In this document: piece by piece, positions 23,583-63,878 of the stretch
Position numbering within the stretch: the stretch's first letter is position 1
How the letters are laid out: every line of letters begins with the position of its first letter
Origin: Zygnema cylindricum
Lineage: Eukaryota; Streptophyta; Zygnematophyceae; Zygnematales; Zygnemataceae
DNA length: 64,000 nucleotides
Direction: 5' to 3'
Assembly: GCA_037447655.1 (NCBI GenBank)
Contig: JBBHKE010002582.1
Span: 163,312 to 227,311, forward strand
The notes under the pieces: generated by a model
Seen by the model: only the letters and a program-made list of their open reading frames with translations
What the model was told of the DNA's origin: nothing
The model's database searches: none
Made by a program: the position numbers and the translations under genes

Positions 23583-23584
23583 AG

Positions 23585-23596
23585 TGGTATCAAAGC
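23585..23596 (+). other. Primer-binding site of copia 1
   Basis: TGGTATCAAAGC, close to the complement of the 3' end of initiator tRNA-Met (usual TGGTATCAGAGC), placed where minus-strand DNA synthesis starts. Confidence 0.75.
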
Positions 23597-26926: not shown

Positions 26927-26935
26927 TAGCAATCA
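26927..26935 (+). promoter_or_regulatory. UAG-CAA-UCA, candidate readthrough stop in copia 1
   Basis: The frame containing the integrase C-terminal region ends ...SILL then TAG, directly followed in the same frame by CAATCA. The frame then stays open through DPQSY.EAR.S.DWE.KW..AWE.E.KS, the entry to the RT domain. UAG followed by CAR-YYA is the leaky context known from tobamoviruses. The same arrangement occurs in copia 2 at 50918. Confidence 0.55.
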
Positions 26936-27930: not shown

Positions 27931-28104
27931 AAGAATCATTGGGAGGCACTGAAACAAATAGTTTCCTATCTCGTTAGTACGATGGAGTACGGTTTGGTGT
28001 ACAAGTCTAATCGGGAAAAGAATCATTGGGAGGCACTGAAACGAATAGTTTGCTATCTTGTTAGTACGATGGAGTACGGTTTGGTGTACAAGTCTAATTG
28101 GGAC
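27931..28104 (+). repeat. In-frame 87-bp tandem duplication inside copia 1
   Basis: Two adjacent copies, 27931-28017 and 28018-28104, of a segment starting AAGAATCATTGGGAGGC, differing at a few positions. The period (87 = 29 codons) preserves frame. It lies in the linker between RT and RNase H. Confidence 0.85.
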
Positions 28105-28575
28105 TCTTTTGGAGGAGATTTCGATAGTGGAAAGTCCACATTAAGGTACGCATTTATTTTGGGAGGCGTGGCAGTTTCGTGAAGTTCACGGTTAGAGCCA
28201 ACGACCGCCTTAAGTTCCACGGAGGCCGAATATATGTCGGCGTGTCATACTTCAAAAGCATCTGTGTGGATCATGGAGATGCTTGGTGAGTTGGGGATTT
28301 TGATTGGCTGTCTGAAAATTTTCATTGACAGCATGAGTTCAATGGCGCTCGTGAAAAACCCGGTCTTTCACAAGCGGACAAAACATATTCCCATCCAGTG
28401 GCACTTCGTACGAGATTTTGTGACTGTGAAGGAAATCGAGTTTTTGTACGTGTCGACTTTCGAGGAGGCCACGTATATGTTAACTAAGGCGATGGTCTAC
28501 GATGTCCATTTACGGGGTAGACCTAAACTAGGTTTGTTTTCAGTTTAAGAGGGGGTTTCACAATGAGAGGGGCGT

Positions 28576-29016
28576 TGTTAGAAACATTGTGAAACGGCGT
28601 TTTAGTTTTGTTGAGCGCCGTAATATTATGATTTAGTTAGCGTGTGGTTTGGTTTTGTGTTGTTTGTTAGTTTAGTTATAGTTTGGTTTGGTTTGGATTT
28701 GCGTGCGTAGTACTTTTGTATTTGTACACCGATTCATATTTTGTTTAGTATCGCGTACTTTATCTTGCTTCGTAGGTATTGCAATTTGATTGGTTCGTTG
28801 GCGTACTTTTGTATGACGTACGATTATGTAGTAGTTGTTTGTTTTGTGTGAGGGTATTTAGGACTTAGTCGTTTTCGTGAGAGATTAATCTTTGTAAGAG
28901 GGGAAAACTTATGGTGAAATATATTTATCTTTTGCTGAAGTGCTCTCTTCTTTACATCTTTGCTTCCGCATTCTATTCTGTCTTTCTTTCTACCATACTG
29001 TGTATCAATCGTTACA
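28576..29016 (+). repeat. 3' LTR of copia 1
   Basis: TGTTAGAAAC...GTTACA, preceded by a GAGAGGGG polypurine tract and followed by the GTAGC target duplication. Confidence 0.9.
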
Positions 29017-32257: not shown

Positions 32258-34161
<1,904 letters not shown>

Positions 34162-36186
34162 TTAAAAATCGCTTTTTTGTATATACGAAAATATGTTTTC
34201 GTGAAGTGGGTCGTTCACAAAGTCGATTAAATTCTCTAGGGGCCCTTTTCTCGTGAGAGCCGCCTGGGCAAAGAATCCGAGCCACGCCACCATCGCCAAT
34301 CTCGCATGCTTTATCTCCTTCACCTGTAAACACCACATTTGTCACACTCGTTACGTTTGTCACATTTGTTACATTTGTCCCACTTGCTACATTTTTCCCA
34401 CTTGTTACATTTGTACTTGTTACGTTGGTCACACAATTGTCACTCTTTTGTTGTATGTCACACCACATGTAGACATTCGTCACCATTGTGGCATTTTTCC
34501 CTCACCACGTTGCCTTTGTCACATTTGTGACATCTGTCACACCGAACGTTTACATCTGTCACATTTGTCACACTGAATGTTTGCATTGGTTGCAATTGTG
34601 ACATATGCCAGACTAATGTTTACATTTGTCATAAACCCAACAACTGCAAGTTGCAAACAAAACCCTCTTCCTTTAAACCCTATTATTCACAAAATGCCAA
34701 ATTCTTTTTTACCTTTAAATCTTCGAAATTTTCCGCATTTTTCGATAATCCGAGAGGATCGAACAAAATTCCTCCGGGATAATTTATGTCTCCGGGAAGA
34801 TAAATTCCGAGAGGTTCCAAAGCCCTTATTCCACAATATCGGGCGTATTCGGGCCCAAGCTGCAAAAATAATTAAATAATTGAATAAATAAATAAGTAAA
34901 TAGATAAATATGCAAATAAATAAAGATGAAGATAAATGAAAAAGAAAAAAACATGGATAAAGAAATAAAGGAGTAAAAAAATGAAAAAAGTAAATAAAAT
35001 CCAGCGTACTCGGGTCCAAGCTGCAAAAATAAATAAGGGATACGGAGAGAGGGAGCGAGGGAGAAAGTGAGAGAGAGAGGGAGAGATGGAATGGAAAGAG
35101 GGAGAAAGGGAGAGTTTGAGAGAGGGAGAGAGGGAGAGAGGTAGAGGAGGAAAGAGAGAGGTGGAAAAGGAGAGGGACGGGGAGAGGGAGAGGGAGAGAG
35201 AGAGAGAGTAAGAGAATCACCATAAGGAAAAACTGTGCAATAGCGATAATGATCACTCCCTCCCCCCCCGCCACATAGAGCCCGGGCACTCCCAGGTAGT
35301 CCAAAGTGTCTCCCTGCCCACCCCTCCCTTGACTCCTTGTCAGCCTCTCTTTCTCTCCTCTCCCTCTTCTACCACTCCCCTCTCTCTCTTGTCCTCCCTC
35401 TCTTTTCTGTCCTAACCCACCTCTCTCCTCCCTCTCCCCCCCCTTCCCCCCCTCTCTCCCCCCCCACCTCCTCCCCCCCCCCCCTCCTTCCCCCCCCCCC
35501 ACACCCTCCCCCCCCCCCATCCCCTCCCCCTCCCCCCCCCAACCTGCAGCTTTGCCTCCCCCACCCTCCACCAGACCGGCTCCCTGAGTGCCACGTCAGC
35601 AGATACTGCCAAAAGTTCCGGAAAAAACCGCTCCAAGGGCGCCCAGCATGGCCCACCGACCATGGAGGATTTCAAAGCTGCCCGAAAAAAAAAAGAAAAA
35701 AAAATGAGGCAGCAACAAAAAAGGCTATTGATGTTTCAATAATTTAGAGGGAGGGAGGGGGAGGGGGAGGGGGAGGGAGAGGGAGAGGGAGAGGGAGAGG
35801 GAGAGGGAGAGGGAGAGGGAGAGGGAGAGGGAGAGGGAGAGGGAGAGGGAGAGAGAGAGGGAGAGGGAGAGGGAGAGGGAGAGGGAGAGGGAGAGGGAGA
35901 GGGAGAGGGAGAGGGAGAGGGAGAGGGAGAGGGAGAGGGAGAGGGAGAGGGAGAGGGAGAGGGAGAGGGAGAGGGAGAGGGAGAGGGAGAGGGAGAGGGA
36001 GAGGGAGAGGGAGAGGGAGAGGGAGAGGGAGAGGGAGAGGGAGAGGGAGAGGGAGAGGGAGAGGGAGAGGGAGAGGGAGAGGGAGAGGGAGAGGGAGAGG
36101 GAGAGGGAGAGGGAGAGGAAGAGGGAGAGGGAGAGGGAGAGGGAGAGGGAGAGGGAGAGGGAGAGGGAGAGGGAGAGGGAGAGGGA

Positions 36187-36284
<98 letters not shown>

Positions 36285-39200
36285 GAGTACTTGAAATTCT
36301 TGTAAAAATCTTCAGTTTCTCTCCCTAGCCCCAGAACATCGAAGCCGTAGTCTCCCGCCACCCCCCCCTCCAAATACTGCGGATATTCGAAGGCAAGGGG
36401 ACCCAAAAATTTTGGCCGGGAAGGTCCGTACCACGGGCTGCCCGAAAAAAAAAAAAAAAAAAGAAAGAAAGAAAGGGGAGGGCGGTGGGGTATGGGAGGG
36501 GGAGGGAATTAGGTTTGACAAGGGGGTGGGAAAGGAGACGTGGAGGAGGGAGGAACGGAGAGAGAGGGGGAAGAGAGAGGGAGAGTGAGAGAGAGGGAGA
36601 ACACAGTGGGAGAGAGGGAGAAAGAGAGGGAGAAAGAGAGGGAGGAAAGGAAAGAGATGGCGAGGGAGAGAGAAAGGGGGTGGGAGCGAGAGAGAGAGAG
36701 GGTGAGGTCGCCACAGGCTCCCCCAAAGAAGAATGGGAGTATGAAAACGAGACAAACATGGGAGGAGGGGAGGAGAAAAAAAAGACAGGAGTGAGGAGAA
36801 AGAGATGAAGAAGGAAAATGGAAGAGGAGAGGTAAAGGGATGGTAGAGGAAGGTGAAGTAGAGGAAAAGGGAGGGTAGATTGGGAGAGAAAAAAGAGTGT
36901 GTGAGAGAGGGATCAAAGTGGGAGAGAGAGAGTGAGAAGGAGATAGAGAAAAAGATGACCAATCTCCCTCTCCCTCTCTGCACTCCAAACAAACCCCCTT
37001 CCCTCTCTCCCCCAATAATCTTACCTACTCTCTCTTGCTTTTCTCCGCTTCTCTTCCTCTCCCTCTCCCCTCCTTTCCTCCTCTTCCGCCCTCTCCCTCT
37101 CCCTCTCCGCCCTCTCCCTCAGCCCCCCCCCCCAGGGAGACTCCGCCAGAGCCTTCACTGCAGTGAAGGGAATCGCAGAAACCACCAAAACCTCAATACT
37201 CTGGAAACCAGGGAGGGAGAGTGAGAGAGAGAGAGGAAGAGAGAGAGAGAGAGAGGGAGGGAGAGGAAGAGAGAGGGAGGAGAGAGAGAGAGAGAAAGAG
37301 TGAGAGAGAGGGAGAGAGAGATAAAGTGTGAGAGAGAGGGAGAGAGGAAGAGGGAGAGAGGAGGGGAAGAGAGGAGATAAGGGGAGTTTTCAATTTTCAA
37401 TCATGGATGGTTACCATTTTTAGTGTGGTTTTGAAAGTGGATGGAATAACAAACTATTTCGTGATGATAGTTTGAATTATTTTTGTTATTTTAGTTTTTA
37501 TTTCATTTTATTTACTTATTTGTTTGACTTTCTAGTGAGGGTAAGCCACTTTTTTTACATTCTATACTTGGTAATATTTTCATCCACTCTAAAATAAAAA
37601 AAAAAAAAAAAAAACATTGGAACACATGGTAATTAACCTCACAGTTGCGATTTTTCATTATAATTTAAAATTGAAAACAAATGGATTTAGACCACAAATT
37701 AAAAGTCAACCTCGAGTAGTAGTAGCCACAAATGGGTCTTATTTACAAGGTTAAGTTAAATTTCAAATCGATGTTAAATTTCAAATCGATGTTAAATTCA
37801 TTAAATTGAATTGAATAAATTAACTTAAATTAAGTTAAATTAAGTTAAGTCAATGTTGAACACAAGTAATTGTTGAAGAAAACAACAAAGTTTACAAACA
37901 TTAGTTAACCACACTACAAAATGTAAACAAAATGTTTAATAAACGATAAATTAAAAGTACAACTTTCATCGCTATTAATATTAACGACTCGAATTGGACT
38001 TAGGGTTTTTTGACTCAAAATCATATACTGTAAATTATACTATTTGGTCAAAGTGGCCCATGATGAGCCACGTGGCAAACATTATTTAGTGTGGTTAAAA
38101 ATACTAAATTCGTTTCAGCGTTTGTAATTGTTCACTAAATCTTACATCGATAAAAGGTGTATACGACTCAAATTTGAAAGGGATATAATATCCGCTCTAA
38201 ACCACACTATATTCCATGTAAAGATTTACTTCGACAAATAAATGGCAACAATGAAAAAAATCCACACTATGTTATATGCACAACTTTTTGACAATTATAT
38301 ATCAAACGCACACACACAAAAGAAAAAACCATACTGTATCTCAAGTAATTGACTATTAGGAGAAGAAATAAGACACTATAATGAAAGTAATGTTTTTATT
38401 ATAAACACTATTAATAATAAATAAATAAGAACACATAATAAGAACATCGTATTAGGTGTGCACGTACGTTGATTCTAGATGGTAGAAAGAAAACAACCAC
38501 ACTATTACGTGGTAAAAATAATATAAATAAAACACCCAAATATTACATAATATATATATATATACATATATAAATATAAAATTATATTATATTCTATTAA
38601 TATTATATTATGTTATTATTGGGACTAGTTGGACTCCCAAATGAACGTAGAAAAATAATTTGCACACTATTTTGACAACTTACACGATAGTTGATAAATA
38701 GTGTGGATCCCAAAAAAAGTAGTTATGTAAACAAACCACATTGACGTAGTAGACAGGACTAACCCAAAAAAAGAAAAAAAAATAAAAAAAAAAATTAAAA
38801 AAAAAAAAAAACTAAATTTGTGTTAACGAATTAATATGTTAATATTTTTTTGTATTAGAAAGAGACGTAAATTAATGAGAATAAATTTGGGATTTGTGAA
38901 TAAATTTGTTGGATTGGTTTAAAATAAAAGTGTTCAGAGGTAGCAGTTTCATGGTTTCTAAAAATATTTTATTTATGACAAAATTTTAGGATGTCACAAA
39001 AATGAAGCGAAAATATATCTGAGGGTGAAATAGAAGTTGACAATAATGGGAAAAAAAAAAAAAAAGCAAAAGAGAACCTATTCAAAAAAAATAGAAGGAA
39101 TCTTTTCAAACTAAACTAAATAAATAATTAGATAACATAAAATGATAAATATTATTATTAATAATAATAATAATAAAAATAAAAATAAAAATAAAATAAA

Positions 39201-47046: not shown

Positions 47047-47611
47047 TGTTACGATTCATTGAAAGAATCGTACGCGCGCGAAATCAGTTCGATTTCGCGA
47101 AGTACCGTACCTTCCAGAATTTACCGAAAGTACTCATACGTACGTTTCGATAAAGTTCTATTCGTTTCGCGAAATATATTCTTCGTTTCGTTTCGCGTCT
47201 AGAATTTTGTTACGTTTAATTTAGTACGATAGTAATTTGTGTAGTACTTTCGTCTTAGCTTGTCGTTTTGCTATGTTTCAGCCCTTAGTGAGAATTAGAG
47301 TTTTCTAGTCTAATCTGCGGACAGGTGGCAGATTTCTGGAGGCTTTTTGGCGGCGCACGCTCACACGTGTCACGCCATGGCTGGTATTGTATTTAAGGGA
47401 TACCATGACTGTGTGTTAATCAATCAATGAGAAATTGGAGGATTATATGGAGTAATAGAAGAGATAGAGAAGAAATTGTAATTTCAGTTTTATATTAATG
47501 TGAGAATTTTCTGAAATGTCTATTCAATGTTGATTTAATGTTCTATATTCTGAATTTTTCTCTGCTATAAGTGTTTATAAATGAGCTCAGAGTTTATTAT
47601 CGATCCTTTCA
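47047..47611 (+). repeat. 5' LTR of copia 2
   Basis: 565 bp. Differs from the 3' LTR by roughly twenty substitutions and small insertions by eye, including a shorter TAAGTGTTTGTAAG repeat near its end. Confidence 0.9.
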
Positions 47612-47613
47612 TT

Positions 47614-47624
47614 TGGTATCAGAG
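47614..47624 (+). other. Primer-binding site of copia 2
   Basis: TGGTATCAGAG, matching the complement of the initiator tRNA-Met 3' end. Confidence 0.8.
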
Positions 47625-47668
47625 AAGGTAGAGCTCCATTGTGGTATCTCTTTGTCTAGTGTTGGCGA

Positions 47669-48958
47669 ATGGGGGGAAAGAACAAAAAGAAGTCCCCTTT
47701 CACTCCCTCCTTTTCCGCTACCCCCGTTTCTAACTTTTGGGAAAATATGCCGACTCCCGAGGATCCTCCTAAAGAAGAGAAAGAGTTCAGTTTTACCGGA
47801 GCCGCATTTGAGTCATCATTCCCCACGGATTCATTTGACCAAAATAGAGGTGTCGGAGGCTCGATGTCCGAAAATCAAATGCGAGAGTATTTGGAGAATT
47901 TTATGCGTCGGATTGATGAAAAGTTCTCGGCCGTGGATAGGAGGTTTGATGAATTAGCTCACGGTGAGCCGGATCCCGAGCCGGATGGAGGAGATTCCGA
48001 TGATAGTGATGGGGAGGTAAAGAAAGTGAAAGATAAGAGGGGGAAACTTAAGCTTGATGACGATTCGGATTTAGAAGAAGATAGTCAAGGAGGAGTGGAA
48101 ATATTTCAGATGCCTGGAAAGACCGTCGTATTCAATGGATCGAATTACCCTTCGTGGAAGAAATATATTCGAGCTCAATTGATTTTGAGAGGCCTTTGGA
48201 AGGTCGTCAATGGAGAAGAGAAAATGCCGGTTGGAGATGTGAAGGCTCGTCGGTTGTGGAAGCGAAAGAATCTTGCGGCCATCACCGGATTAATGCAAAC
48301 TTGTTCGGTGTCCGTTTATGATTATTTCCTCACGCATAGCACCGCACAAGGATGTTGGAAGGCGTTGGAATCCCAATTTGAGAGGGGAATCCAAAACAAG
48401 GGCCAATATATGTTCTCCGATTTCATGCAATTTAAAATGAAATCCAATGAATCTTTTGACGATGCCGTGAAGAGATTCAATATTATTGTGGAGCAACTTC
48501 TCAACAATGGGAGAGTGATCACGGAGGAGGACAAAGTAACCGGTTTTTCGAATGCATTACTGGATAAGTGGATCCATCTCAAGGAGATTTTACTTGCGAG
48601 GGAAAATAACACCTACGAGTTTATTGTGAATTATTTAAATATGGCGGAGAGTAATTGTGTTAGCTCTTCAAAGGGCTCTTTGGACACGGGATCCTTGAAT
48701 GTGATTGCTCCCAAATTCGCGGACTTACATTATTTCCGTGGAAGAGGGGGTGGAAAAGGAGGAGGTCCGAGAGGTCGTGGAAAATGGTTTGATAGGAGCG
48801 GAAATTCGAGACCTCGGTCCGTCCAGAATGATAATAGCAACATCTTGTGTTTCCGTTGCAACCGGCCAGGTCATTTTTCGGCTTCTTGTCCGGAAAAAGG
48901 ACAGAGAATGCTTCAATTGTGGGAAACTAGGCCATACGATCCAGCAATGCTACTCTAA
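47669..48958 (+). CDS. Copia 2 gag
   Basis: Capsid-like protein of 429 codons starting MGGKNKKKSPF. An acidic, Ser/Asp-rich N-terminal third (PEPDGGDSDDSDGE) is followed by a UBN2-type gag (FNGSNYPSWKKYIRAQLI, AITGLMQTC) and a Gly/Arg-rich region with a first zinc knuckle CFRCNRPGHFSASC. The true gag continues in another frame with a second knuckle (CFNCGKLGHTIQQC, about 48.91 kb). A one-base change in the GGAAAAAGG run near 48895 therefore truncates this ORF artificially at 48958. A compensating change restores the original frame near 49020. Confidence 0.85.
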   Translation: MGGKNKKKSPFTPSFSATPVSNFWENMPTPEDPPKEEKEFSFTGAAFESSFPTDSFDQNRGVGGSMSENQMREYLENFMRRIDEKFSAVDRRFDELAHGEPDPEPDGGDSDDSDGEVKKVKDKRGKLKLDDDSDLEEDSQGGVEIFQMPGKTVVFNGSNYPSWKKYIRAQLILRGLWKVVNGEEKMPVGDVKARRLWKRKNLAAITGLMQTCSVSVYDYFLTHSTAQGCWKALESQFERGIQNKGQYMFSDFMQFKMKSNESFDDAVKRFNIIVEQLLNNGRVITEEDKVTGFSNALLDKWIHLKEILLARENNTYEFIVNYLNMAESNCVSSSKGSLDTGSLNVIAPKFADLHYFRGRGGGKGGGPRGRGKWFDRSGNSRPRSVQNDNSNILCFRCNRPGHFSASCPEKGQRMLQLWETRPYDPAMLL

Positions 48959-50920
48959 ATTTAGTAGCGAAGGAGTAAGAGGCGGTCCCATTTTTAGAGG
49001 TCGCGGTCGCGGACGTGATAGTGGTGTGGTCGTGGACGCTATGGCGGTCATGGCGGAAGCCATGGAAATTTTGTTGACTTGGGAAATTTTGAAGGAGACG
49101 AAGGAGGACAAACGTTCACTTGTCTCCACCTCACTATTGATTCTTTATGTGACGCACGCGATGACGCACACGAAAAGGAATGGATTATTGACACAGGAGC
49201 GTCTCACCACGTGTGTACGGACGCTACACTTTTTGACGACATGCGTTCACTTACCGTACCAAAGCTAATTGCGGTCGCAAGTGGACAAACGATTACGGTT
49301 GGTAAAGTGGGTACCGTTTGTTTAAATCTACCCACGTGGGACCGTTTTGGAAATGAAACTATTTCGGAGGCGCGTCTATTGAATGTCCTATATATTCCGG
49401 ATGGTTCAGTGAATCTATTAAACGTACCTCAAATTCAGCGTGCCGGTGGAAGTGTAGTCGCTAGAGGTGATTCGGCGATTCGTATATATCGCGCCGACGA
49501 CAAATTAATCGGCGAAGGCGAAGTAACCAATTCAATGCATAGCCGACTTTTATGGAGGCGACCTAGGAAAAATGCTTCTTCCACGGGCATTCTAAACCAA
49601 ATCTCGGAATTAAAGGGAGATTTAACGTTATGGCACCATCGGATGTGTCACACATCCAAAGGAAATTTGAGGAAAATGATAAAAACGGCATTTGTGAGAG
49701 GATTAGGTCTTGCTACCGGCGAAAAAGTAAATGGGTGTGATGGATGTAGTCAAGGACGACAAATTCGAAAACCACATCCTACGAAAGATGTGAAATTTCG
49801 GGCTCAACATCCTTTGGAGCTTGTCCACGTCAATCTATGTGGACAAATTAAGCCGGAGAGTTTTAGAGGAAATAGATATATTATGGTCATCGTTGATGAT
49901 TATTCGAGATTTTTGTGGGTTCGATTATTGAAGAGGAAATCGGATGCTCTTCAAACTTTTATTGAGTGGCATGCATTTGCCGAAAGACAATGCGAACGGA
50001 AGTTGAAAGCCATTCGTTCGGATAATGGAGGCGAATTTATCGCATTTGAGGGGTATTGTAAAGAGAAAGGTATTACACAACAATTTACTTCACCTTATTC
50101 TCCGGAATCAAATGGAGTAGCCGAAAGGAAAAATAGGACTTTACAAGAAATGGTGAGGGCGATGGTGCATTCGGCCGGTCAAAGTATCTCATTATGGGGA
50201 GATGCCATCCTCACGGCAAATTACATTTGTAATCGGAGACTTACTTCGGTTTCCGGTGACAAAACACCATTCGAATTACTTTATGGGCGAAAACCGGCCC
50301 TCCATCATCTCCGAATTTGGGGATGTCGTGCTACTGTGTATGTGGATCAAGTGAAAAGGAAAGGGAAATTTGCGGCGAGAAGTTGGCCCGAAATTTTCGT
50401 GGGCTATAGTACGAAAGGAAATCTTTATCGTGTATTTGATCCTGTTCGTCGCATTGTGGAAGAATCTAGAAATGTCAATTTTCACGAAGACTTAAAATCG
50501 GTTATCGAAAAATCGGCGGAATTGAAGAAGAATCTTGATTTTTATGAGGTAGACGATGTTACCAATTTCCCAGAAATTGAGGACTCGGATTCGGATGAGG
50601 AGCCAGAATCCATTATCAACATCAAGAAGGGAAAATTAAATGTTAATTCGAGTTTGGAGAAATTGGACATCGAAATTGATGTTCAGAGTAATGCAAGCCG
50701 AAATTCCAAAATGTCGACGGAAAGTCAAAAATCTTCGAGTTCAAAATCGAATGTGGACGAGGAGGAGAAGATTGTGGAAAAAGTTCCGGTTTTTAGACGG
50801 AGTACTCGAGAGAATCGAGGAAAGAAACCAAATCGGCTTTCTTATGACAAAATTGGTGGAGAGAATTCCAATTCCCATTATTTCGTCTCCGATGCGAAGG
50901 AGACGGAATTCCTTTTATAG
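48905..50920 (+). CDS. Copia 2 protease-integrase
   Basis: After the frame breaks near 48895 and 49020, the frame from 49079 encodes the protease (WIIDTGASHHVCTD, intact DTGA), the integrase zinc domain (LWHHRMCHTSKGNLRK...CDGCSQ), and the catalytic core with IRSDNGGEF and SPESNGVAERKNRT. The first catalytic Asp, expected in the D-LCG motif, is Asn here (HVNLCGQIKPES), while copia 1 keeps Asp. The frame ends ...AKETEFLL then UAG at 50918, before RT. It is likely a polyprotein segment rather than a free enzyme. Confidence 0.85.
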
Positions 50921-50926
50921 CAATTA
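50918..50926 (+). promoter_or_regulatory. UAG-CAA-UUA, candidate readthrough stop in copia 2
   Basis: The pol frame stops at TAG followed by CAATTA, exactly the tobamovirus leaky-termination context. The same frame then remains open to 51094, encoding QLMCENLAGDPQSYAEAR and DWETKWKPAWEKEYKS, homologous to the post-stop peptide of copia 1. The position (between integrase and RT) is identical in both elements. Confidence 0.6.
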
Positions 50927-51094
50927 ATGTGCGAGAATTTGGCCGGCGATCCTCAATCATACGCGGAGGCGAGAAATTCGTGTGATTGGGAAACGAAGTG
51001 GAAGCCGGCATGGGAGAAGGAGTATAAGTCAGTTGTGGAAATCGGGCATTTGAGTTTACATGAACCGATCATATGGCGACGTGCCATGTGGTGA
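50921..51094 (+). pseudogene. RT-entry remnant after the stop, copia 2
   Basis: 57 codons in frame with the preceding ORF. The DPQSYAEAR...DWE.KWKPAWEKE motif is what normally opens the copia RT region. After about codon 38 homology ends (IGHLSLHEPI...), marking the deletion junction that removed RT and RNase H. Confidence 0.7.
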
Positions 51095-51322
51095 AGGCAT
51101 GAATATTTCACGAGAAAGAGTTTTCAGTTTGAGGAATGTTTAAATTGAAATCGGCGGTAACCTTTATGTTTAAGAGGGGGCGACCACGGAAAGAGTTTGT
51201 TACGCCTTGTGACGATTCTCCCAATACGAGGGGGATGTTGGATATTGAAAGAATCGGCCAAGAGTTTAGGAGTTTATTTTGGTTCTAGTGGGATTTGACG
51301 ATTCTTCAATGAAGAGGGGGAA

Positions 51323-51905
51323 TGTTACGATTCATTGAAAGAATCGTACGCGGGCGGAATCAGTTCGATTTCGCGAAGTACCGTACATTCCAGAATTTAC
51401 CAAAATTACTCATACGTACGTTTCGATAAAGTTCTATTCGTTTCGTGAAATATATTCTTTGTTTCGTTTCGCGTCTAGAATTGTGTTACATTTAATTTAG
51501 TACGATAGTACTTCTAGTTTTGTGTAGTACTTTCGTCTTAGCTTGTCGTTTTGCTATGTTTCAGCCCTTAGTGAGAATTAGAGTTTTCTAGTCTAATCTG
51601 CGGACAGGTGGCAGATTTCGGGAGGCTTTTTGGCAGCGCACGCTCACACGTGTCACGCCATGGCTGGTATTATAATTAAGGGATACCATGACTGTGTGTT
51701 AATCAATTAATGAGAAATTGGAGGATTATATGGAGTAATAGAAGAGATAGAGAAGAAATTGTAATTTCAGTTTTATATTAATGTGAGAATTTTCTGAAAT
51801 GTCTCTTCAATGTTGATTTAATGTTTTATATTCTGAATGCTTCTGCTGCTATAAGTGTTTGTAAGTGTTTGTAAGTGAGCTCAGAGTTTATAATCGATCC
51901 TTTCA
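51323..51905 (+). repeat. 3' LTR of copia 2
   Basis: 583 bp, TGTTACGATTC...CCTTTCA, preceded by GAAGAGGGGGAA. An additional TTGAAAGAATCG-like segment near 51240-51260 resembles the LTR start and may reflect the deletion process. Confidence 0.9.
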
Positions 51906-52442
51906 AAGGGGTAGGGGGCTCAACTGAGGTGCCTAATCGAGGCCGCACGTGATCGCAAAAAGATGGAGACGGGGATCAGGACGCCTGCCGCTTTTGAGGA
52001 GCCATAAAGAACGTGATACTGAGTCGTAGAAGATACAAGATACAAAACTGAAAACTCCAACAGGAGACCACTCCATAGAAAGCGGGTAGTAACTAAGGGA
52101 CAAGCCAAATCCGGTTTGGGATTGGGCTCGCTGGGTGGAAGGGTAAAATCCGCCCGGAAAGCTCTCCTTGGTGGGCTCGAGTAAGCAAAATAAAAAGTGA
52201 AATAAAACAGGCTCCTTGGGTGATAGATGAAAGATAGTCAAAAAAACTTGCGGCCGACTGCACGTCAAATTCGGCGCCGGAGACACAAAGAGAAGGCCGG
52301 AAAAAGTTAGTAGGAAACCATGGCCGAGGCGTCCATGCCGTCAGCAAAAAAAAATTTCTTCGAAATACTCGCAAATGGCACGGCAATTTGAGTGGTAAAT
52401 TTGGTAAGAGACGTCCACGAAAAGGAAAATGTAAATTGGCTG
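51906..52442 (-). pseudogene. 5' remainder of the non-LTR element
   Basis: Continuation, on the minus strand, of the element interrupted by copia 2. It holds ORF pieces without recognisable domains. Its outer end is the target site (GGCTG at 52438-52442) of the TRIM. Assignment rests on position and orientation, not on motifs. Confidence 0.35.
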
Positions 52443-52670
52443 TGTTGGATTGGCACGTGAAGCCGGTCTAATACGGGGTAGAATATGGAAATATCCATAC
52501 TCGAGCCGCCCGTAATAAATGGGTACGGACCCGCCAGTCTCAACATCGAGCTGGTGGCACAGTGGTAGTGCGTTCGCAGCTGAAGTGAAAGGTCCCGGTT
52601 CGAACCCTGGCCGGCTCAATTTTCCCAAGTGTGGGACATGCCGAATCCCGGATTTCTAGGAAAACTAACA
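52443..52670 (+). repeat. 5' LTR of the TRIM
   Basis: 228 bp, TGTTGGATTGG...AAACTAACA. Contains a small palindrome TATGGAAATATCCATA about 60 bp upstream of the tRNA-like sequence. Confidence 0.92.
52548..52618 (+). tRNA. tRNA-like sequence in TRIM 5' LTR (probably not a translating tRNA)
   Basis: Folds as a cloverleaf: acceptor GAGCTGG/CCGGCTC (7 bp), D stem GCAC/GTGC with loop AGTGGTA, anticodon stem TTCGC/GTGAA, T arm with TTCGAAC loop, discriminator A. Box A TGGCACAGTGG and box B GGTTCGAACCC match the Pol III consensus, and TTTT follows at 52620-52623. The anticodon loop AGCTGAA lacks U33. This copy has a 1-nt deletion and one mismatch in the variable/T-stem region relative to the 3' LTR copy. 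Confidence 0.7.
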
Positions 52671-52682
52671 TGGTATCGGAGG
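52671..52682 (+). other. TRIM primer-binding site, interrupted by chromovirus insertion
   Basis: TGGTATCGGAGG directly follows the LTR; the original sequence, judged from the other side of the insertion (GGAGCC at 59693), was TGGTATCGGAGCC. The last five bases are the chromovirus target duplication (GGAGG versus GGAGC, one mismatch). Confidence 0.8.
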
Positions 52683-53200
52683 TGTAACAGGGTTACAGAA
52701 TTGGGTACTTAGTAGTTAGGGCTAGGCTGCTATAGTTGCGATTTCAGAGCAGCGCAGTTGCGATGCCAGAGCAGCGCACCTGCGATTCTAGACCAGTGCA
52801 GCATAGCAGCATAGCAACTTAGCGGCGTAGCAACTAGTAGCGCAGCGGCGTAGCAGCGCAGCATAGCAACGCCGCAATTGGGTAGATTGAACTGTATAGT
52901 TCTAGAAGGAAGTTTGGATAGATCTTGGATTGGCCGCGAAGGTCCACGTGTACAGCCGTATAGTACTAAGTTGACCAGCAGTTAGCTAGTTTAAATAGTC
53001 AGGTAGACCTAGTGAATAGGACACCGGAAGTAGACCTGAAATAGACTTACGCAGCTAGCGCAACCTTGTACTCTCTTTCAAGTAACAAAGCCCAACTTTG
53101 TCTGTGAGTTCTGTGTGCTCTTGCTGTTGCTACGGGGAGATCCTTGGTATTTTCCGCTGTGCATTGTGACGTATTGTGGGGTGTTGTTACCTCTTTTACA
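52683..53200 (+). repeat. 5' LTR of chromovirus
   Basis: 518 bp, TGTAACAGGGTTACAG...CTCTTTTACA. The first ~190 bp are rich in GCAGCGCAG/GCATAGCA words also found in the 3' part of pol. Confidence 0.93.
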
Positions 53201-53201
53201 C

Positions 53202-53214
53202 TGGTATCGGAGCC
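53202..53214 (+). other. Primer-binding site of chromovirus
   Basis: TGGTATCGGAGCC, one base inside the LTR; complementary, with one mismatch, to the initiator tRNA-Met 3' end and identical to the reconstructed PBS of the host TRIM. Confidence 0.8.
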
Positions 53215-53234
53215 CTTACCCGTGACTCGACAGC

Positions 53235-53927
53235 ATGGATGAACACGGTGTATCTACTACAGAAATGTTGGCGCAAGTTCTCAGGGAGTTGGAAAGTGTG
53301 AGATTACAGAATGCGCAGCTAAGTAACACCGTCAAAGCCTTAGAGACGCGTCTAGGGGAGCGACCTCATGGAGGCATCGAGAGAGATTCCCGGAGACCGA
53401 AATTACGGCTTCCCGACGAGTTTGACCCTGCAAGACACAAGAACCTTGACTCATGGCTATTCTCCGTGGCGAACTATCTCGAGAATTTTCTTAGCATATC
53501 GGATCGTGAGAAGATTCACTACGCGGGTGGTCTTCTTAAAGGGGCAGCGGGGGCTTGGTGGAGAACGTTGGTAGAGGACGATGAGACACCGACCGTCTGG
53601 GCGCTCTTCGTTCAACTCCTCCGCGACACTTGGCAGCCTGTCAACACGGTGAAGGCAGCGAGAGATAAGATCGCAGTATTGAAGCAACGAACTTCAGTGA
53701 TGGAGTTTACGCAGAGGTTCTTGGAGTGCAAGGTTCAAATATCTACGATGACGGAGGATGAAACCGTGGATCGTTTCGTGAAGGGGCTTAAGTCGTCTAT
53801 TCGTAGAGATGTGGAGCAATGGCTTGCTCGGGAAAGCACAACTCCCCCTCTCTCAGCAATCATCCAGTTTGCGGAGCGGACCGATTCGGTCGACGTTAGC
53901 CTCCGGAAACCTTATCACTACGGGTAG
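53235..53927 (+). CDS. Chromovirus gag, N-terminal part (ends at premature TAG)
   Basis: 230 codons starting MDEHGVSTTEMLAQV. An N-terminal coiled-coil-like segment (LRELESVRLQNAQLSNTV) is followed by the retrotransposon gag fold (LDSWLFSVANYLENF, GGLLKGAAGAWWRTLV, VMEFTQRFLECKVQIS). The TAG at 53925 is followed in the same frame by SSSGGNRRDEG...MELGAIN and the zinc knuckle, which belong to gag, so this stop most simply reflects a CAG to TAG change. The following bases (AGC) do not fit a known readthrough context. Confidence 0.88.
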   Translation: MDEHGVSTTEMLAQVLRELESVRLQNAQLSNTVKALETRLGERPHGGIERDSRRPKLRLPDEFDPARHKNLDSWLFSVANYLENFLSISDREKIHYAGGLLKGAAGAWWRTLVEDDETPTVWALFVQLLRDTWQPVNTVKAARDKIAVLKQRTSVMEFTQRFLECKVQISTMTEDETVDRFVKGLKSSIRRDVEQWLARESTTPPLSAIIQFAERTDSVDVSLRKPYHYG

Positions 53928-55067
53928 AGCAGTAGCGGAGGAAACCGACGAGACGAAGGTCCAACCCCCATGGAGCTCGGCGCAATTAATGAAGATAAGG
54001 AGGCGGTCAACGTCCTGCGGAAAAAGAAGAATACCACCAAGACCAAGACCAATGACTTGTCCCCCGAGGAAATCCAACGGAGGAGGCAAAATGGCCTATG
54101 CTTCCAGTGCGGTTCTCCGGATCACATGGCTCGGGAGTGTCTAAAGCGGAAAGACCCCAAAAAGGGAAAACTTACTGTTATGAGGTTAGCCGGAGAAGGA
54201 GGTGACCCTTTGATATTTCGGGGTCAAATTGGAGTGAGTGCAGCTGATTTCATGGTGGACTCCGGAGCGTCGGGAAACTTCATTAACGAGGCGACGGTGA
54301 AAAGGTTGAAACTTCCTCTTGTGGTACTACATAATCCTCAGTCGGTGCAATTGGCCGACGGCACTTCCCTATCAATCACCCATCGTACCCCGAGGTTGCG
54401 CGTCGGCATTGGGAAATTCCGATGGTACGACACGCTTCATGTATTACCTCTTGGGGATCATGAGGTAATATTGGGGAAGCCGTGGCTGCAAAAATGGAAT
54501 CCGATGATTGACTGGAGAAGTGGCACCATGAGAGTGAAGAAAGGTGAAGAAGAGTTTGAGGTAACAGCGGGAGCGGCTGGTAAGGGAACTGAAGAGGGAC
54601 GCCTGCTTTCGGCCTTACAACTTAAAAGGGCACTTAAGAAAGGGGAAATGATTTATATGGCGGTCGTCCAGCCAATGGAGGAGGCGAAGGAGGAGATCCC
54701 GGAAGAATGGAAAAAGAAGGACCCCGACTTCGACTCCAAAGAAAGTGACGACATTGGAAAGACTTCCGAAGAGGCCCCGGAAGTCGTGTCAAAACTTCTC
54801 GAGGAGTACGCAGATGTATTTCCCCCGAAGCTCCCCGAAGGATTACCTCCGAAGCGCGAAGTGGATCATAAAATAGAGCTTGTTCCTGGAGCGGTACCTC
54901 CGGCTAATCGGATGTACAAGATGAGCTACACCGAGTTGGACGAATTGAAAAAGCAACTCGCGGAGTTGGTCGAAGCCGGAGCAATCGAACCAAGCAAGTC
55001 ACCGTATGGAGCCCCTGTTCTCTTTGTGAACAAGAAAGAGGGAGGGTTCCGTATGTGTATAGATTAG
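53928..55067 (+). CDS. Chromovirus gag end, protease and RT entry
   Basis: Same frame as gag. Contains the zinc knuckle CFQCGSPDHMAREC (54.1 kb), the aspartic protease motif FMVDSGASGNFI (54.25 kb) with the distal VILGKPWL, then the RT fingers (MYKMSYTELDELKKQLAE, SPYGAPVLFVNKKEGGFRM). It stops at TAG 55065 in CID-stop-RALN, where RTs have a conserved Tyr, so a single-base nonsense mutation separates it from the rest of RT. Confidence 0.88.
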   Translation, partial: SSSGGNRRDEGPTPMELGAINEDKEAVNVLRKKKNTTKTKTNDLSPEEIQRRRQNGLCFQCGSPDHMARECLKRKDPKKGKLTVMRLAGEGGDPLIFRGQIGVSAADFMVDSGASGNFINEATVKRLKLPLVVLHNPQSVQLADGTSLSITHRTPRLRVGIGKFRWYDTLHVLPLGDHEVILGKPWLQKWNPMIDWRSGTMRVKKGEEEFEVTAGAAGKGTEEGRLLSALQLKRALKKGEMIYMAVVQPMEEAKEEIPEEWKKKDPDFDSKESDDIGKTSEEAPEVVSKLLEEYADVFPPKLPEGLPPKREVDHKIELVPGAVPPANRMYKMSYTELDELKKQLAELVEAGAIEPSKSPYGAPVLFVNKKEGGFRMCID

Positions 55068-58058
55068 CGAGCGCTGAACAAGTTAACGGTGAAGAATGCG
55101 TACCCCCTACCGAGGATAGACGAATTGTTGGATCGACTTCGAGGTGCCAAATATTTTTCGAAAATAGACTTGCGGAGCGGCTACCACCAGATCAGAATTG
55201 CCGAGGAGGATGTGGAAAAGACGGCGTTCAGAACTCGATACGGTCATTTCCAGTTTCGGGTAATGCCGTTCGGGTTGACTAACGCACCGGCGACCTTTAT
55301 GCATTTAATGAATTCCATCTTTCGACAATATCTGGACGCATTCGTGATCGTCTTCTTAGATGACATATTGGTGTATAGCCGAACGCAGGAGGAGCATGTG
55401 AAGCACTTACGGACGGTCCTCCAAGTCCTTCGGGAGCATAAGTTATACGCAAAAAGAAGTAAATGTGACTTCTTTAAGGAGAAAATTGACTTTCTAGGCC
55501 ATGTGGTGAGCCGGGACGGGATCGCAGTGGATCCCAACAAGACTAGAGCAGTAAAGGAGTGGCCGCAGCCGGCGAATATTACGGAGTTACGAAGCTTTCT
55601 CGGACTATGCTCCTATTATCGACGTTTTGTCGAAGGTTTCGCAAAAATCGCTGCACCGCTCACGGAATTGCTCAAGAATGATGCGCCCTATGATTGGAAA
55701 GCGGCGCAAGAAACAGCCTTTAACACGCTAAAGGAGCGGTTGGTTACCGCCCCTGTGTTAGCTGTTCCCGATCCGGATTTACCTTGGACGGTAATTACTG
55801 ACGCTAGCGATATGGCTATTGGAGCGATCCTTATGCAGGATCAAGGAAAAGGCCTTCAACCCATCGCCTACGACAGTCGCAAACTAAAGGCAGCAGAGTT
55901 GAACTGGGCTACCCATGAGAAGGAAACAATAGCTATTATCAATGCGCTGGAGGTTTGGAAGTGTTACGTTCAGGGAAAACGGATCACGGTTATCACGGAT
56001 CACCACGCCTTACAATATCTCCAAACCCAGCCGAAGTTGTCCAAGAAACAAGTGCGCTGGATGACGTTCCTGCAAACCTTCGGTCCGGAACTTGTTATTG
56101 AATATAAGCCGGGCAAAACGAACCCGGCGGATGCGCTGTCAAGAAGACCTGACGTCGCTGCGCCGGCAGCGGAGCAACAACCGCAAGCACCGCAGCAGAG
56201 GAACGGAGACTCTGTGAAAGAGAAAAGCGCAGCGTTGACCGAAGCGCAAAATCAGAAGCTCAGCGCAGTCACCAGTACGGTGCAAGTGGACGAACAGTGG
56301 TTAAGTCGGATAAAGGCCGCCTACGGCGATGATGGTTCACTAAAGGAACTTGTCAAACGGAAAGTACTCGTTCGAACTGCCAATGATATGTGGCGGTATA
56401 GACCGAGTAAGACAACACGGCTATATGTGCCGACAAATACGGCACTTCGTCACGCAATTCTTCAAATGAGTCATGACGAGCCGCTCAGTGGACATTTTGG
56501 ACGAGATAAAACAACCGCACGTGTCGCTGAAGCGTATTACTGGCCAAACATGACTCGAGACATTGCAGAATATGTCCGGACGTGTGACTCGTGTAATAGA
56601 AACAAATCTGATTCAGGGCAACAAGGTCTGTTACAACCCCTCCCAATACCATCTGTTCCTTGGGAGGCGATCTCGATGGATTTTATCGTGGCCCTTCCCC
56701 GGACGAAGGAGGGCTACGACTCAATCTTCGTCGTCGTGGATTACCTAACGAAAATGGCACATTTTCTACCCACGACCACTACGGCTACTGCACGAGATAT
56801 TGCGGACTTATTCTTTCGGGAAATATTCCGCCATCACGGTCTTCCAAAAAGGATCGTCAGCGACCGCGATCGAAAATTCGTGAGCCACTTTTGGCAAAAT
56901 CTATTTGCGTTATGCGGAACGCAGCTTGCCATGTCCACAGCCTACCACCCTCAAACTGATGGTCAAACTGAACGGGTGAATCGGACTTTGGAGGAAGCAT
57001 TGCGGGCTTATGTCTCGGTGCACCAAACGGATTGGGTGGACCATTTAACGGCAATCGAAGTAGCATACAACAGTGCAGTCCACTCGTCAACAAATGCTAC
57101 GCCTTTCTCCCTCAATGGACGACAACCCACTCTTCCCCACACTTTATTGGTAGCGGACTGCGAAACACCGGCTGCTTTAGACTTTGCCAAGACGTTGCAA
57201 GGCAACCTGGAAAAGGCGGCAAAGGCGCTCCAACTGGCAAAGGATCGCCAAAAGTCGCAGGCGGACGCTCACCGGAAGGAAATAGTCTTCTGTGTGGGGG
57301 ACAAGGTTCGCCTTAATATGGCAAACCTCTCCTTGCCGGGAGCCCTCTCTAAAAAGTTAGCCCCAAAGTTCACGCGCCCGTTCACAATTCTGTCCCGTGT
57401 GGGCAACGTCGCTTACAGGTTGGATATCCCGACGGACTGGCATATCCACAATGTTTTCCATGTTTCCCTCCTTAAACCATTCCGTGATCCTGATTCGGTG
57501 TTCCCTAACCGACGACGGCATACTCCTCTACAACCCGTTCAAGGTACCTCAGACGAGTATGAGGTGGAAGAGATCCTTAAGTCACGTCGCTCTCGGAATT
57601 CTAACTCCACGCAATACTTGGTGCGTTGGAAGGGTTACGGTGCTGAGGACGACTCTTGGGTGGACGAGGGGGATCTGCATTCCCCGGAGTTGCTGCGCCG
57701 GTTTCTGCAGAGTGAGGACACTCAGCTTTACCCGAGGGGCAATTGCAGCGGCCGCAACAAAGGGGCGAATCGCAGTGGCGCAACCATCGCAATAATATTG
57801 GGGACGCGGCAAAGGACCGCAGCGGCGATGTTACCACACTGCAGCGCTGTAGCAGCGCAACCACCGCAGCGCAACATGGTCATGATGACGTCAGAGGATC
57901 GCAGTATCACCACTGCGCTGACAGGAAAGCGCAACGGCGCAATTGTGTTTCACTATGTAGGTAACGACGAACCCTCGGTTCCGCCGCAGCAACGCAGTTT
58001 TAGACATGTTGGATACTGCGATACCCTCGCACGCTGCGACGCTGCGCACAGCCCATAA
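55068..58058 (+). CDS. Chromovirus RT, RNase H, integrase, chromodomain
   Basis: In frame with the upstream part. RT motifs are [15 protein letters not shown] and FLDDILVYS (about 15 kDa in from the start at 55089). RNase H shows [11 protein letters not shown] and [19 protein letters not shown]. The integrase has HFGRDK...CDSCNRNK and the D, D, E residues in [18 protein letters not shown] and [15 protein letters not shown]. The GPF/Y region is [19 protein letters not shown]-terminal chromodomain ([11 protein letters not shown]...YLVRWKGY...DDSWV) would direct integration to methylated-histone chromatin by family analogy. It is followed by a ~130-residue low-complexity tail rich in R, S, A and T. 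Confidence 0.92.
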
Positions 58059-58202
58059 GTGAAACCCTCAACCCCCGGGAATACAACCATCATTCGTCCT
58101 CACAACTAACTCAGTCTCGGCAGCTTGGAAACGGCTTCCCTCCGCACAATTACTTTACCTCCGCTTCTGGAGCTACCGGAATTGTCTGGTTCAGCAGTGT
58201 CT

Positions 58203-59128
58203 ATGGCGTCGTCGTCCTCTCCACCCTCGAAAAGGAGGAGACTGGTACGGGTGGGACAAGGAGACCGAGCCGTCCCGAGAGATTGCTAAGGGCGGCGGAA
58301 GCCATGGTGGAAGCTAGCAATCGAAGAGAGGTAGAAGTGGAGCCGGAACCGGAGGATAGTGTCAGTTGCGAGGCAAGACCGGCGGAGACCACTGGAGGGG
58401 AGGGGTCAGAGAACTCACAGGACCCTGAATACACCCCAACCCGGGAAGGCGATCAGGAACTTTAAGCAGATCATGAGCTGTCGGAGGCGGAGGAGTCGGA
58501 ACGCGAACAAACACCTCCGCCAATTGAGGAGCGCGCCTCAGATCTGGAGGTGACGCGGGACCCAACCAAGGAGAGCACTCCAGACGATCAATCGTCTGAA
58601 AGCGCGGAGAAGCTAGCGGAGGAAAACTACAGGTACAGAATTGACGTTCCCGGGTTACTTCGCCATTATCACCCGTGGGATGTTCGCCTCCACGACATCA
58701 TCTCTCGAGCGGAAGTCACCCCTGAAGTTCGAGAACTCAAGCTGGCTCGAAGGAATGCTCTGCAGCGGGCCCGAGCTGCAAGAAAACACGTGTCCTTCAA
58801 ATTACGAAAGGTACCTCGGTGGGAACCGGCGGACGAGGAACCAGAGGAAGCTACCCCAGGGGCTGAACCCGGAGGACCCAGGATTCCGGCACCCGAGGAG
58901 CCTGCACCTGCGGACGTTCCGCAGCAAACCGCAGTACCCATGGAGGAAGCGGAGAATCAGGTTCGGGAACGAATTACTCGGCGGCGGTTGGCAGCTGCAG
59001 ATCGTCACATCGCGTTACTGGAGACCCGATGTGAACAGCTCCAACATCAACTCGACGTCCTTCGCCAGGAGTTCGAAGAGTATCGTGAAGAAACATACGA
59101 CATACTCCGGCAACTGCAGTTTCCCTGA
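58203..59128 (+). pseudogene. Extra ORF (ORF3) of the chromovirus, broken
   Basis: Between the pol stop and the 3' LTR. A start at 58203 encodes MASSSSPPSKRRRLVRVG, a basic, nuclear-signal-like N-terminus. After a frame change near 58250 it continues (RRPSRPERLLRAAEAMVEAS) through an acidic Glu/Pro-rich region, crosses one TAA (58463), and runs from 58466 to 59128. The last part has a basic, folded-looking block (YRIDVPGLLRHYHPWDVRLH, ARAARKHVSFKLRKVPRWEP) and a heptad-like coiled coil (LAAADRHIALLETRCEQLQH). There are no membrane segments, so it is not an envelope. I do not recognise the family. Confidence 0.65.
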
Positions 59129-59174
59129 CTCCATCAAAGTTCAGCGGGACGCTGAATCCTTAGTGGGAGGCCAC

Positions 59175-59692
59175 TGTAACAGGGTTACAGAATTGGGTAC
59201 TTAGTAGTTAGGGCTAGGCTGCTATAGTTGCGATTTCAGAGCAGCGCAGTTGCGATGCCAGAGCAGCGCAGCTGCGATTCTAGACCAGCGCAGCATAGCA
59301 GCATAGCAACTTAGCGGCGTAGCAACTAGTAGCGCAGCGACGTAGCAGCGCAGCATAGCAACGCCGCAATTGTGTAGATTGAACTGTATAGTTCTAGAAG
59401 GAAGTTTGGATAGATCTTGGATTGGCCGCGAAGGTCCACGTGTACAGCTGTATAGTACTAAGTTGACCAGCAGTTAGCTAGTTTAAATAGTCAGGTAGAC
59501 CTAGTGAATAGGACACCGGAAGTAGACCTGAAATAGACTTACGCAGCTAGCGCAACCTTGTACTCTCTTTCAAGTAACAAAGCCCAACTTTGTCTGTGAG
59601 TTCTGTGTGCTCTTGCTGTTGCTACGGGGAGATCCTTCGTATTTTCCGCTGTGCATTGTGACGTATTGTGGGGTGTTGTTACCTCTTTTACA
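59175..59692 (+). repeat. 3' LTR of chromovirus
   Basis: 518 bp, nearly identical to the 5' LTR. The preceding sequence (TTAGTGGGAGGCCAC) is only a weak polypurine tract. Confidence 0.93.
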
Positions 59693-59742
59693 GGAGCCAG
59701 CGGGATTGCGGATGGTTTGACCAGCTTTCCCGTGAGGGGGGG

Positions 59743-59971
59743 TGTTGGATTGGCACGTGAAGCCGGTCCAATACGGGGTAGAATATGGAAATATCCATAC
59801 TCGAGCCGCCCGTAATAAATGGGTACGGACCCGCCAGTCTCAACATCGAGCTGGTGGCACAGTGGTAGTGCGTTCGCAGGTGAAGTGAAAGGTCCTAGGT
59901 TCGAACCCTGGCCGGCTCAATTTTCCCAAGTGTGGGATATGCCGAATCCCGGATTTCTAGGAAATCTAACA
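59743..59971 (+). repeat. 3' LTR of the TRIM
   Basis: 229 bp, preceded by GTGAGGGGGGG (polypurine tract) and followed by the GGCTG target duplication. Confidence 0.92.
59848..59919 (+). tRNA. tRNA-like sequence in TRIM 3' LTR (probably not a translating tRNA)
   Basis: 72 nt forming a full cloverleaf: acceptor GAGCTGG/CCGGCTC, D stem GCAC/GTGC, anticodon stem TTCGC/GTGAA, 5-nt variable loop, T stem CTAGG/CCTGG with loop TTCGAAC, discriminator A. Boxes A and B are intact, and TTTT at 59921-59924 is a Pol III terminator. The anticodon loop AGGTGAA lacks U33, so a decoding role is unlikely. This copy keeps the more canonical variable loop. Confidence 0.72.
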
Positions 59972-60029
59972 GGCTGAAATTGGCAAAGCCGATTATGAAA
60001 AAACCAGGGAACGGATGGATCCGATTCGC

Positions 60030-60470
60030 CACGAATAGAAAGGTTTTTGAAAATAATTTTTGTAAAGTACCTTCACGCCAAATTTCGCGCCTGATACTCG
60101 AAGAGAATGTGAAAAAACCCTAAGAGGAAACTATGGGTGAAGCTTCTGAAACGGTGTCATCTAAAAATAATTCCCTCCAATACGAGCTGATCTTACGTAA
60201 TCTTGATGCACGACTAATGTCACGCCAAATTGGGCGGCCAAGATGGCAGAAGATGGCCACAAACGGAAAGAAGAAAGTCGGCCGAAACTGGCAGACTCGA
60301 TTAATAGAAAACGAGAGAGCGGATGGAGGTGATTTTCTCATCAATAGAAATATTTTTGAAAATACGTTCTTTTAAGTACCCGTACTCCAAATTTGACGGC
60401 GGGTACACGTAGAGACGGTCAAAAAACCCTAGCTGCAAGCCATGGCCGAAGCTTTTGGAAGGCCGCCGGT
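60030..60470 (+). repeat. Diverged direct repeat
   Basis: Two related blocks (about 60030-60160 and 60343-60470) share AATAGAAA.GTTTTTGAAAATA, AAGTACC..CGCCAAATTT and AAAAAACCCTA...ATGG. The units are about 310 bp apart. No coding content recognised. Confidence 0.5.
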
Positions 60471-62407: not shown

Positions 62408-63878
62408 TCAAAAATAAGTCGCCACTCGCGTCCACAAAGCCCCTTTATCCAAAACCGTATCCTTCGTATATTGTATTTGGTACGTCGCCGGTTTAAAAAC
62501 GTAATCCGCGGGAATCTCGGAATTGTTTCGGAAATAACATTGACTTATCGGAAACGACAAAGACGCTTGCAATGGTAAATCTCCGGGTACATCTTTGTCG
62601 TTTTTTAAACCGTACGAATCTAGCGAACGAATAGAATTTAAATCGTAAACAGATCCCACGGTTCCCGAGGCTACAGCCATTTGTATCCCTTTAAATCCCC
62701 CGACCGATACACTTCTAACATTTGCGAATTCCTGCAAAATACGAACATGCGAACAAACAAAATTATAAGGGAAGTGAGAAATTTTAAAAATGTTCAAATG
62801 AGAATAAAAAAGAAAAATAAAGCGGTAAAGGGAAACAAAAAAAAAGAAGAGGACATTTTACCTCCATTCGATAGACAAAATCTGCGCAAGCCGAATAACA
62901 ATTTCCATTGGTCAGAACAAGAATATTTTTGGGCTCAAAAAGGGGTAAAACATTTGGATCCATATCAGAAATAAATTTTAAAGAGCTTAATTTTGCCAAA
63001 CTCGAATAATTGCCTTTTACCCCTCCGAAGGTTTTAGAAACAGTCGGGAAAAAAAAATCTTTCGGGTCGTCGAAAGGAACACTATTTAGGGTTTGGTAAC
63101 CCGCGGGAGAAAACATAGAATCATAATTATTTGAAGAAATTGCTTTTTTGACCATTTTTTGAATAATTGAGGTCGCTCGAAACTCGATATTATAAGTCCC
63201 ATTTTTCAAAGAAGGGAAAAGAGTTTCAATAAATTTGTCGGGGAGATAAGCGTATCCTCCGGGATTATCTTGAAGGTCAATGATAAGGCGGTTTATACCC
63301 GATCGCCTGGAGAAAAGAATTAATATAGTTGATTATTAAAGAGAGAAATGAACAAAAAATAAAGAAAAAGTGGAAAGGATGAACGAAAGGCAGGTCTTAA
63401 GTTGAGGAGTTGAGGGTTTTTTAGGGTTTTTGAAGGTTTGTCAGGGTGAAGCTTTGCACCATTTACTTAGTTTTATGGTTTTTTTAGGGTTTTCTTAAGG
63501 CATTTTCCAAGTTTTCTTCTAGGTTCTCTAAACAATTTTGAATTTTCTCAATGTTTTCACAGTCTTCTAAACTATTTTCAAGTTTGTTTGTCAGGTTGTT
63601 TGAGGGTTTTAAGGTTTCTTAACCTTTTTTTTTAGTTTTTGACTTTTTTCCCAAGGTCAGGGTTCTTAAGGTTTTGAAGCTTCTTTTAAGGTTTTTTTTA
63701 GAGGAAAAAGGTTTGCTAAAAAGTAATAAAGGTAATTAGAGAGGAAATTAGAGTCCTACTTGAGAAGAAAAAGTCCAACAAAAAAATCTTCTACCATGGC
63801 GGACGGATACATCGAATAAGACGGGTAAAAACTGGGAACTATAATAACGCCGGTTTTGTTGTCGGGTAGTACCCACGT
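62408..63878 (-). CDS. S41-family peptidase (CPAF-like), 3' part of gene
   Basis: Partial gene continuing beyond the window. Exons: 63878-63795 (TWVLPDNKTGVIIVPSFY...), 63306-62862 and 62731-62408 (stop TGA). The last two join in phase 0. The first two do not match in phase, so a small exon between them is unresolved or the gene is damaged. The middle exon has the S41 motif NRLIIDLQDNPGGY and the nucleophile region NILVLTNGNCYSACADFVYR with Ser in CYSAC. The last exon has SVGGFKGIQMAVASGTVG and ends PADYVFKPATYQIQY...DKGALWTRVA. The pattern resembles the CPAF-like S41 peptidases; substrate and location are unknown. Confidence 0.75.
63307..63794 (-). other. Intron of the S41 gene, TTAGGGTTTT-rich
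   Basis: AT-rich, with many AGGGTTTT/AAGGTTTT words on the plus strand. It may hide a short exon, since flanking exon phases disagree; none could be identified with confidence. Confidence 0.5.

Follow-up and report, generated by a model that had tools for sequence, protein, structure and literature searches.

A 64,000-nucleotide stretch of the Zygnema cylindricum genome (here called the window) carries an element that is very probably a Helenus-type TRIM (Kojima's TRIMp3), 514 bp long, with a tRNA-derived Pol III promoter in its LTRs, later split by a Gypsy retrotransposon. The assignment to Helenus, made on sequence anatomy, is a match to the published definition and not to published Helenus sequences.

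Borders of the TRIM and its interruption by a Gypsy element

The features of the element and its immediate surroundings are listed below in window coordinates.

52438..52442, no strand: left target site duplication (TSD), GGCTG
52443..52670, plus strand: 5' LTR, 228 bp, TGTT...AACA
52443..52473, plus strand: predicted hairpin of 12 bp with a 7-nt loop, at the start of the LTR
52548..52618, plus strand: tRNA-like sequence of the 5' LTR, with a single T-stem mismatch and G33
52555..52565, plus strand: A-box-like motif TGGCACAGTGG
52597..52606, plus strand: B box GGTTCGAACC
52620..52623, plus strand: TTTT, putative Pol III terminator, one base past the tRNA-like sequence
52671..52682, plus strand: PBS TGGTATCGGAG, of initiator-Met type, with the first part of the TRIM interior, interrupted by the Gypsy
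52683..59692, plus strand: nested chromodomain Gypsy, outside the TRIM proper
59693..59733, plus strand: remainder of the TRIM interior, its first five bases being the second Gypsy target copy
59734..59742, plus strand: polypurine tract GAGGGGGGG, adjoining the 3' LTR
59743..59971, plus strand: 3' LTR, 229 bp
59848..59919, plus strand: tRNA-like sequence of the 3' LTR, with every stem paired in the Rfam alignment and G33
59921..59924, plus strand: TTTT of the 3' LTR, putative terminator and proposed R/U5 border
59972..59976, no strand: right TSD, GGCTG
60216..60460, plus strand: neighbouring repeat unit, the paralogous empty site, outside the element

BLASTN and alignment showed that the 5' LTR (52443-52670) and the 3' LTR (59743-59971) are 97.38% identical over 229 columns, differing by five substitutions and one 1-base indel, and that both begin with TGTT and end with AACA. 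An exact 5-bp TSD, GGCTG, stands on either side of the element. The first base of the PBS TGGTATCGGAG directly follows the end of the 5' LTR, and the final base of the polypurine tract (PPT) GAGGGGGGG directly precedes the 3' LTR. When the nested Gypsy was subtracted together with one of its two near-duplicate target copies, the interior, made up of the PBS, a spacer and the PPT, came to 57 bp, giving an unsplit length of 514 bp (228 + 57 + 229). The element thus has the features of a TRIM: short direct LTRs with TG...CA ends, a total length below 1000 bp, a PBS after the 5' LTR, a PPT before the 3' LTR and a 57-bp interior that leaves no space for a protein. An initial annotation of this DNA had proposed two TG...CA direct repeats of about 228 bp, exact GGCTG target duplications, a PBS, a polypurine tract and an interior of about 57 bp, all of which were borne out. 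It had also treated 52443..59971 as a single miniature element; the ends of that region are those of the TRIM, and most of it is the nested Gypsy, which the annotation did not name.

Almost all of the 7 kb between the TRIM LTRs belongs to this later Gypsy. Its own LTRs (52683-53200 and 59175-59692, 518 bp each) differ at 6 of 518 positions, Pfam identified gag, protease, RT, RNase H, integrase and chromo domains, and its target copies, GGAGG (52678-52682) and GGAGC (59693-59697), are alike at 4 of 5 bases. The LTR divergence of the two elements (5/228 for the TRIM versus 6/518 for the Gypsy) fits an order in which the TRIM came first and the Gypsy later, the counts being too small for proof. 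Within the Gypsy (52683-59692), two in-frame TAG stops separate the gag, protease and RT frames, and an extra frame of 220 aa lies 3' of pol (58466-59128), acidic and coiled-coil-like by eye and with no Pfam match. Searched at the protein level with the Gypsy pol frame, viral_contigs yielded three pattern stretches and no relative.

The host sequence of the TRIM (52374-52442 and 59977-60460) consists of diverged repeat units with a spacing of about 309 bp. We joined the flanks 52374-52442 and 59977-60151 at a single TSD copy and compared them with the repeat unit at 60216-60460, to which they were 71% identical over 246 columns. In a global alignment to the same unit, 48 of the 70 columns before the join and 127 of the 176 after it agreed, and the join itself was ungapped. 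Because the joined flanks align unbroken to the neighbouring repeat unit, we regard the insertion of the TRIM and its borders as established.

BLASTN found no further TRIM copy or LTR sequence elsewhere in the 64-kb window, and exact 25- and 30-base patterns matched 0 stretches in viral_contigs and genome_contigs, neither of which is a eukaryote collection. After a first Pfam scan of ten frames, which gave the Gypsy domains, a second covered 108 of the 187 complexity-filtered open frames of at least 75 residues (the 79 left out lie mostly in known elements or overlap) and returned five families with one member each, namely four Copia gag/pol families and Peptidase_S41. Two Copia elements (47047-51905 and 23143-29016) have LTR pairs that are 93% and 91% identical and Met-type PBS variants. 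The Peptidase_S41-like exons (62411-63332, minus strand; 23.2 bits, slightly below the Pfam cut-off of 24), with pyrimidine-rich stretches between them by eye, are the sole candidate for a host gene in the set of frames scanned, and comparison of the S41 exon with solved structures gave no useful match. The window also holds an inverted duplication of about 3.3 kb (10165-13446 and 15526-18786, 86% identical) and TA-rich and GA/CT-rich simple repeats (32568-33205 and 35725-37118) that are open in several frames on both strands.

The tRNA-like sequence in each LTR

ARAGORN called two tRNA genes in the entire 64-kb window, with the anticodons CTG and GTG; they lie in the two LTRs, at 52548-52618 and 59848-59919. 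Both matched Rfam RF00005 (gathering score 29), the 5' copy at 46.3 bits (E 1e-6) and the 3' copy at 51.8 bits (E 3.3e-8), with E values for 64 kb, which confirms the initial annotation in placing a tRNA-like sequence in each LTR. The complete cloverleaf proposed there holds for the 3' copy, which pairs in all stems in the Rfam alignment, and is imperfect in the 5' copy, where one T-stem pair is mismatched and the variable loop is a base shorter. In the same alignment position 33 is G in both copies, and the U33 of a working tRNA is missing. Because decoding tRNAs carry U33, we take the unit for a promoter; a nearly intact cloverleaf without U33 is more likely to be a promoter than a working tRNA.

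The A-box-like motif TGGCACAGTGG and the B box GGTTCGAACC are the same in both LTR copies. The strict A-box pattern, TRGCNNAGYNGG, which ends in GG, matched neither copy and a looser pattern matched both. When both strands were searched, the loose A..B pair occurred twice in the window, at the two LTR copies, compared with three occurrences in total over 200 mononucleotide shuffles. The sole run of four or more T in each LTR is a TTTT one base beyond the tRNA-like sequence (52620-52623 and 59921-59924), at the position where a terminator had been predicted. On structural grounds there is good support for the TRIM anatomy and for a tRNA-like promoter, probably of Pol III, in each LTR.

The Pol III-driven Helenus reading is slightly weakened by the failure of the strict A-box pattern and by the weak folding of the isolated unit. 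On their own (71-72 nt), the tRNA-like parts do not fold more stably than shuffled sequences (z -0.94 and -0.36). The cloverleaf is the minimum-energy fold in the 3' copy only, not in the 5' copy, and the centroid fold of the 3' copy is without the T arm. For the complete LTRs, z was -4.6 and -4.3 in two runs for the 3' LTR and -3.4 for the 5' LTR, with two Copia LTRs at -2.6 and -0.5 and the Gypsy LTR at -0.7; among random 229-nt pieces of the window, 1 of 40 reached -4.0, the lowest value being -4.64. The reverse complement of the 3' LTR scored -4.5. Because it scores equally, the folding signal reflects inverted-repeat DNA content as much as RNA signal, and LTR folding was set aside as a sign of selected RNA.

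Self-priming by the tRNA-like sequence was rejected, since its 3' end pairs with the PBS at best at 7 of 13 positions. Retrozymes carry a hammerhead ribozyme in the LTR. An Rfam search of 52400-60000 at E up to 1 returned the two tRNA matches only, with no ribozyme family and no 5S rRNA.

A model of transcription and its alternatives

From the arrangement of these features we infer Pol III use, its start and stop points, the R region, the identity of the primer and a helper element. In the 5' LTR, TFIIIC and TFIIIB bound at the A and B boxes would position Pol III near 52548. From such a start, Pol III would need to get past the T run of the 5' LTR and terminate at its counterpart in the 3' LTR. 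Four T form a leaky Pol III terminator, and the polymerase would at times read through the first TTTT and halt at the second. If initiated near 52548 and terminated in the TTTT of the 3' LTR, the genomic RNA of an unsplit copy would measure about 362 nt, and its R region would comprise the tRNA-like unit plus the terminator, about 76 nt. An initiator-Met-type tRNA would prime at the PBS and the PPT would prime the plus strand, and the proteins of an autonomous LTR element would provide reverse transcription and integration, making the 5-bp duplication.

As to the helper, the PBS variant TGGTATCGGAGCC is common to the nested Gypsy and the TRIM, and the two Copia elements have the variants TGGTATCAGAG and TGGTATCAAAG. 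This sharing gives only a hint that the nested Gypsy type may serve the TRIM; the pointer is weak because BLASTN of the window finds no TRIM LTR elsewhere and because fungal Helenus elements are tied to Copia (PMC10886601). We also put forward, tentatively and as a doubtful extension, that the element may represent a Helenus-type family that arose on its own in a lineage without prior report. R would then consist of the complete tRNA-like gene including its leaky TTTT, and a single promoter would make two RNAs, one tRNA-like (about 76 nt) and one genomic (about 362 nt), with terminator read-through setting the transposition rate.

We weighed the Pol III-driven Helenus reading against a conventional TRIM transcribed by Pol II, into whose LTR a tRNA gene or a tRNA-derived SINE was taken up as a non-promoter passenger; this alternative we consider unlikely. 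The U3 region contains AATAAA, CACGTG and ATTGG, and the first two make a Pol II start in U3 possible, whereas neither LTR contains TATAAA or TATATA. Three of the six LTR differences, counted in one element with two LTRs, fall within the tRNA-like part, as a passenger would allow; the two boxes (21 bases) have 0 differences compared with about 0.6 expected. The lack of a second copy within the window also favors a passenger, but the entire tRNA-like sequence, both boxes and the adjoining TTTT are kept in both LTRs, and this double presence means that the tRNA-like sequence has been reverse-transcribed at least once.

It is highly improbable that the LTRs bear a working tRNA gene, with the element spreading functional tRNAs and being retained for that: ARAGORN and Rfam both recognise a tRNA in either copy, but the anticodons would differ within one element (CTG versus GTG), both copies have G33, and a T-stem pair is lost in the 5' copy. 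An origin of the repeats by chance or through assembly, with no mobile element, for which the sighting of a single element might speak, is just as improbable, since the TSD is exact, a PBS and a PPT directly adjoin the LTRs and there is a paralogous empty site.

Relation to Helenus and other known elements

The Helenus-type TRIM that we favor is of a kind already described in 2024 and is a further example, not the first. Helenus was defined by Kojima as TRIMs with a tRNA-derived sequence in their LTRs, and the hosts listed are fungi, members of six animal phyla and a single plant, Selaginella moellendorffii (PMC10886601). The remark of the initial annotation that it knew of no described example in plants is overtaken by a published Selaginella moellendorffii family. 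Like the present element, Helenus has the LTR tRNA-derived sequence, a PBS, a PPT and, in fungi and plants, a 5-bp TSD (4 bp in animals); its lengths of 311-1263 bp include the 514 bp found here, and its tRNA-like sequence has no complementarity to the PBS (PMC10886601), so that both are without such pairing. Compared by description, Helenus-1_SMo from Selaginella moellendorffii has an LTR of 120 bp and an interior of 85 bp, whereas those of the present element are 228-229 and 57 bp. The description of Helenus itself states that Pol III use is not validated (PMC10886601). Among the literature matches listed, in which subscription papers are thinly covered, no other description of tRNA-bearing TRIMs was found; a 2026 meeting report mentions Helenus in one sentence.

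Cassandra, from plants, is likewise a TRIM with the Pol III promoter of a small RNA gene in its LTRs and a Met-type PBS, and the PBS given in PMC7215508, TGGTATCAGAGC, is one base apart from TGGTATCGGAGC of the present element. The Cassandra LTR carries 5S rRNA sequence, whereas the LTR described here carries a tRNA-like sequence and has no 5S match. Cassandra transcripts are described as running from the 5S sequence in the 5' LTR to the 5S sequence in the 3' LTR (PMC10886601); Cassandra is also treated in PMC10853983. The Ajax TRIMs of nemerteans share the TRIMp3 plan and the 5-bp TSD, but carry a partial 5S rRNA sequence that the present element does not have (PMC10886601). tRNA-headed SINEs have tRNA-derived A and B boxes in common with the present element but move differently, the present element having LTRs, a PBS, a PPT and an LTR-type TSD.

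The element is a clean tRNA-promoter TRIM, with exact borders, a later Gypsy split and a near-complete tRNA-like unit with an adjoining T run. The nearly intact cloverleaf, the TTTT directly behind it and the abundance of self-complementary sequence in the LTR suggest a model in which R is the tRNA-like unit. Such a structure makes the Helenus question, namely whether Pol III transcribes these elements and where R lies, easy to test. Inflation of tRNA gene counts by LTRs has been reported for rust fungi (PMC10886601), and the tRNA gene counts of this genome may be inflated by LTRs in the same way.
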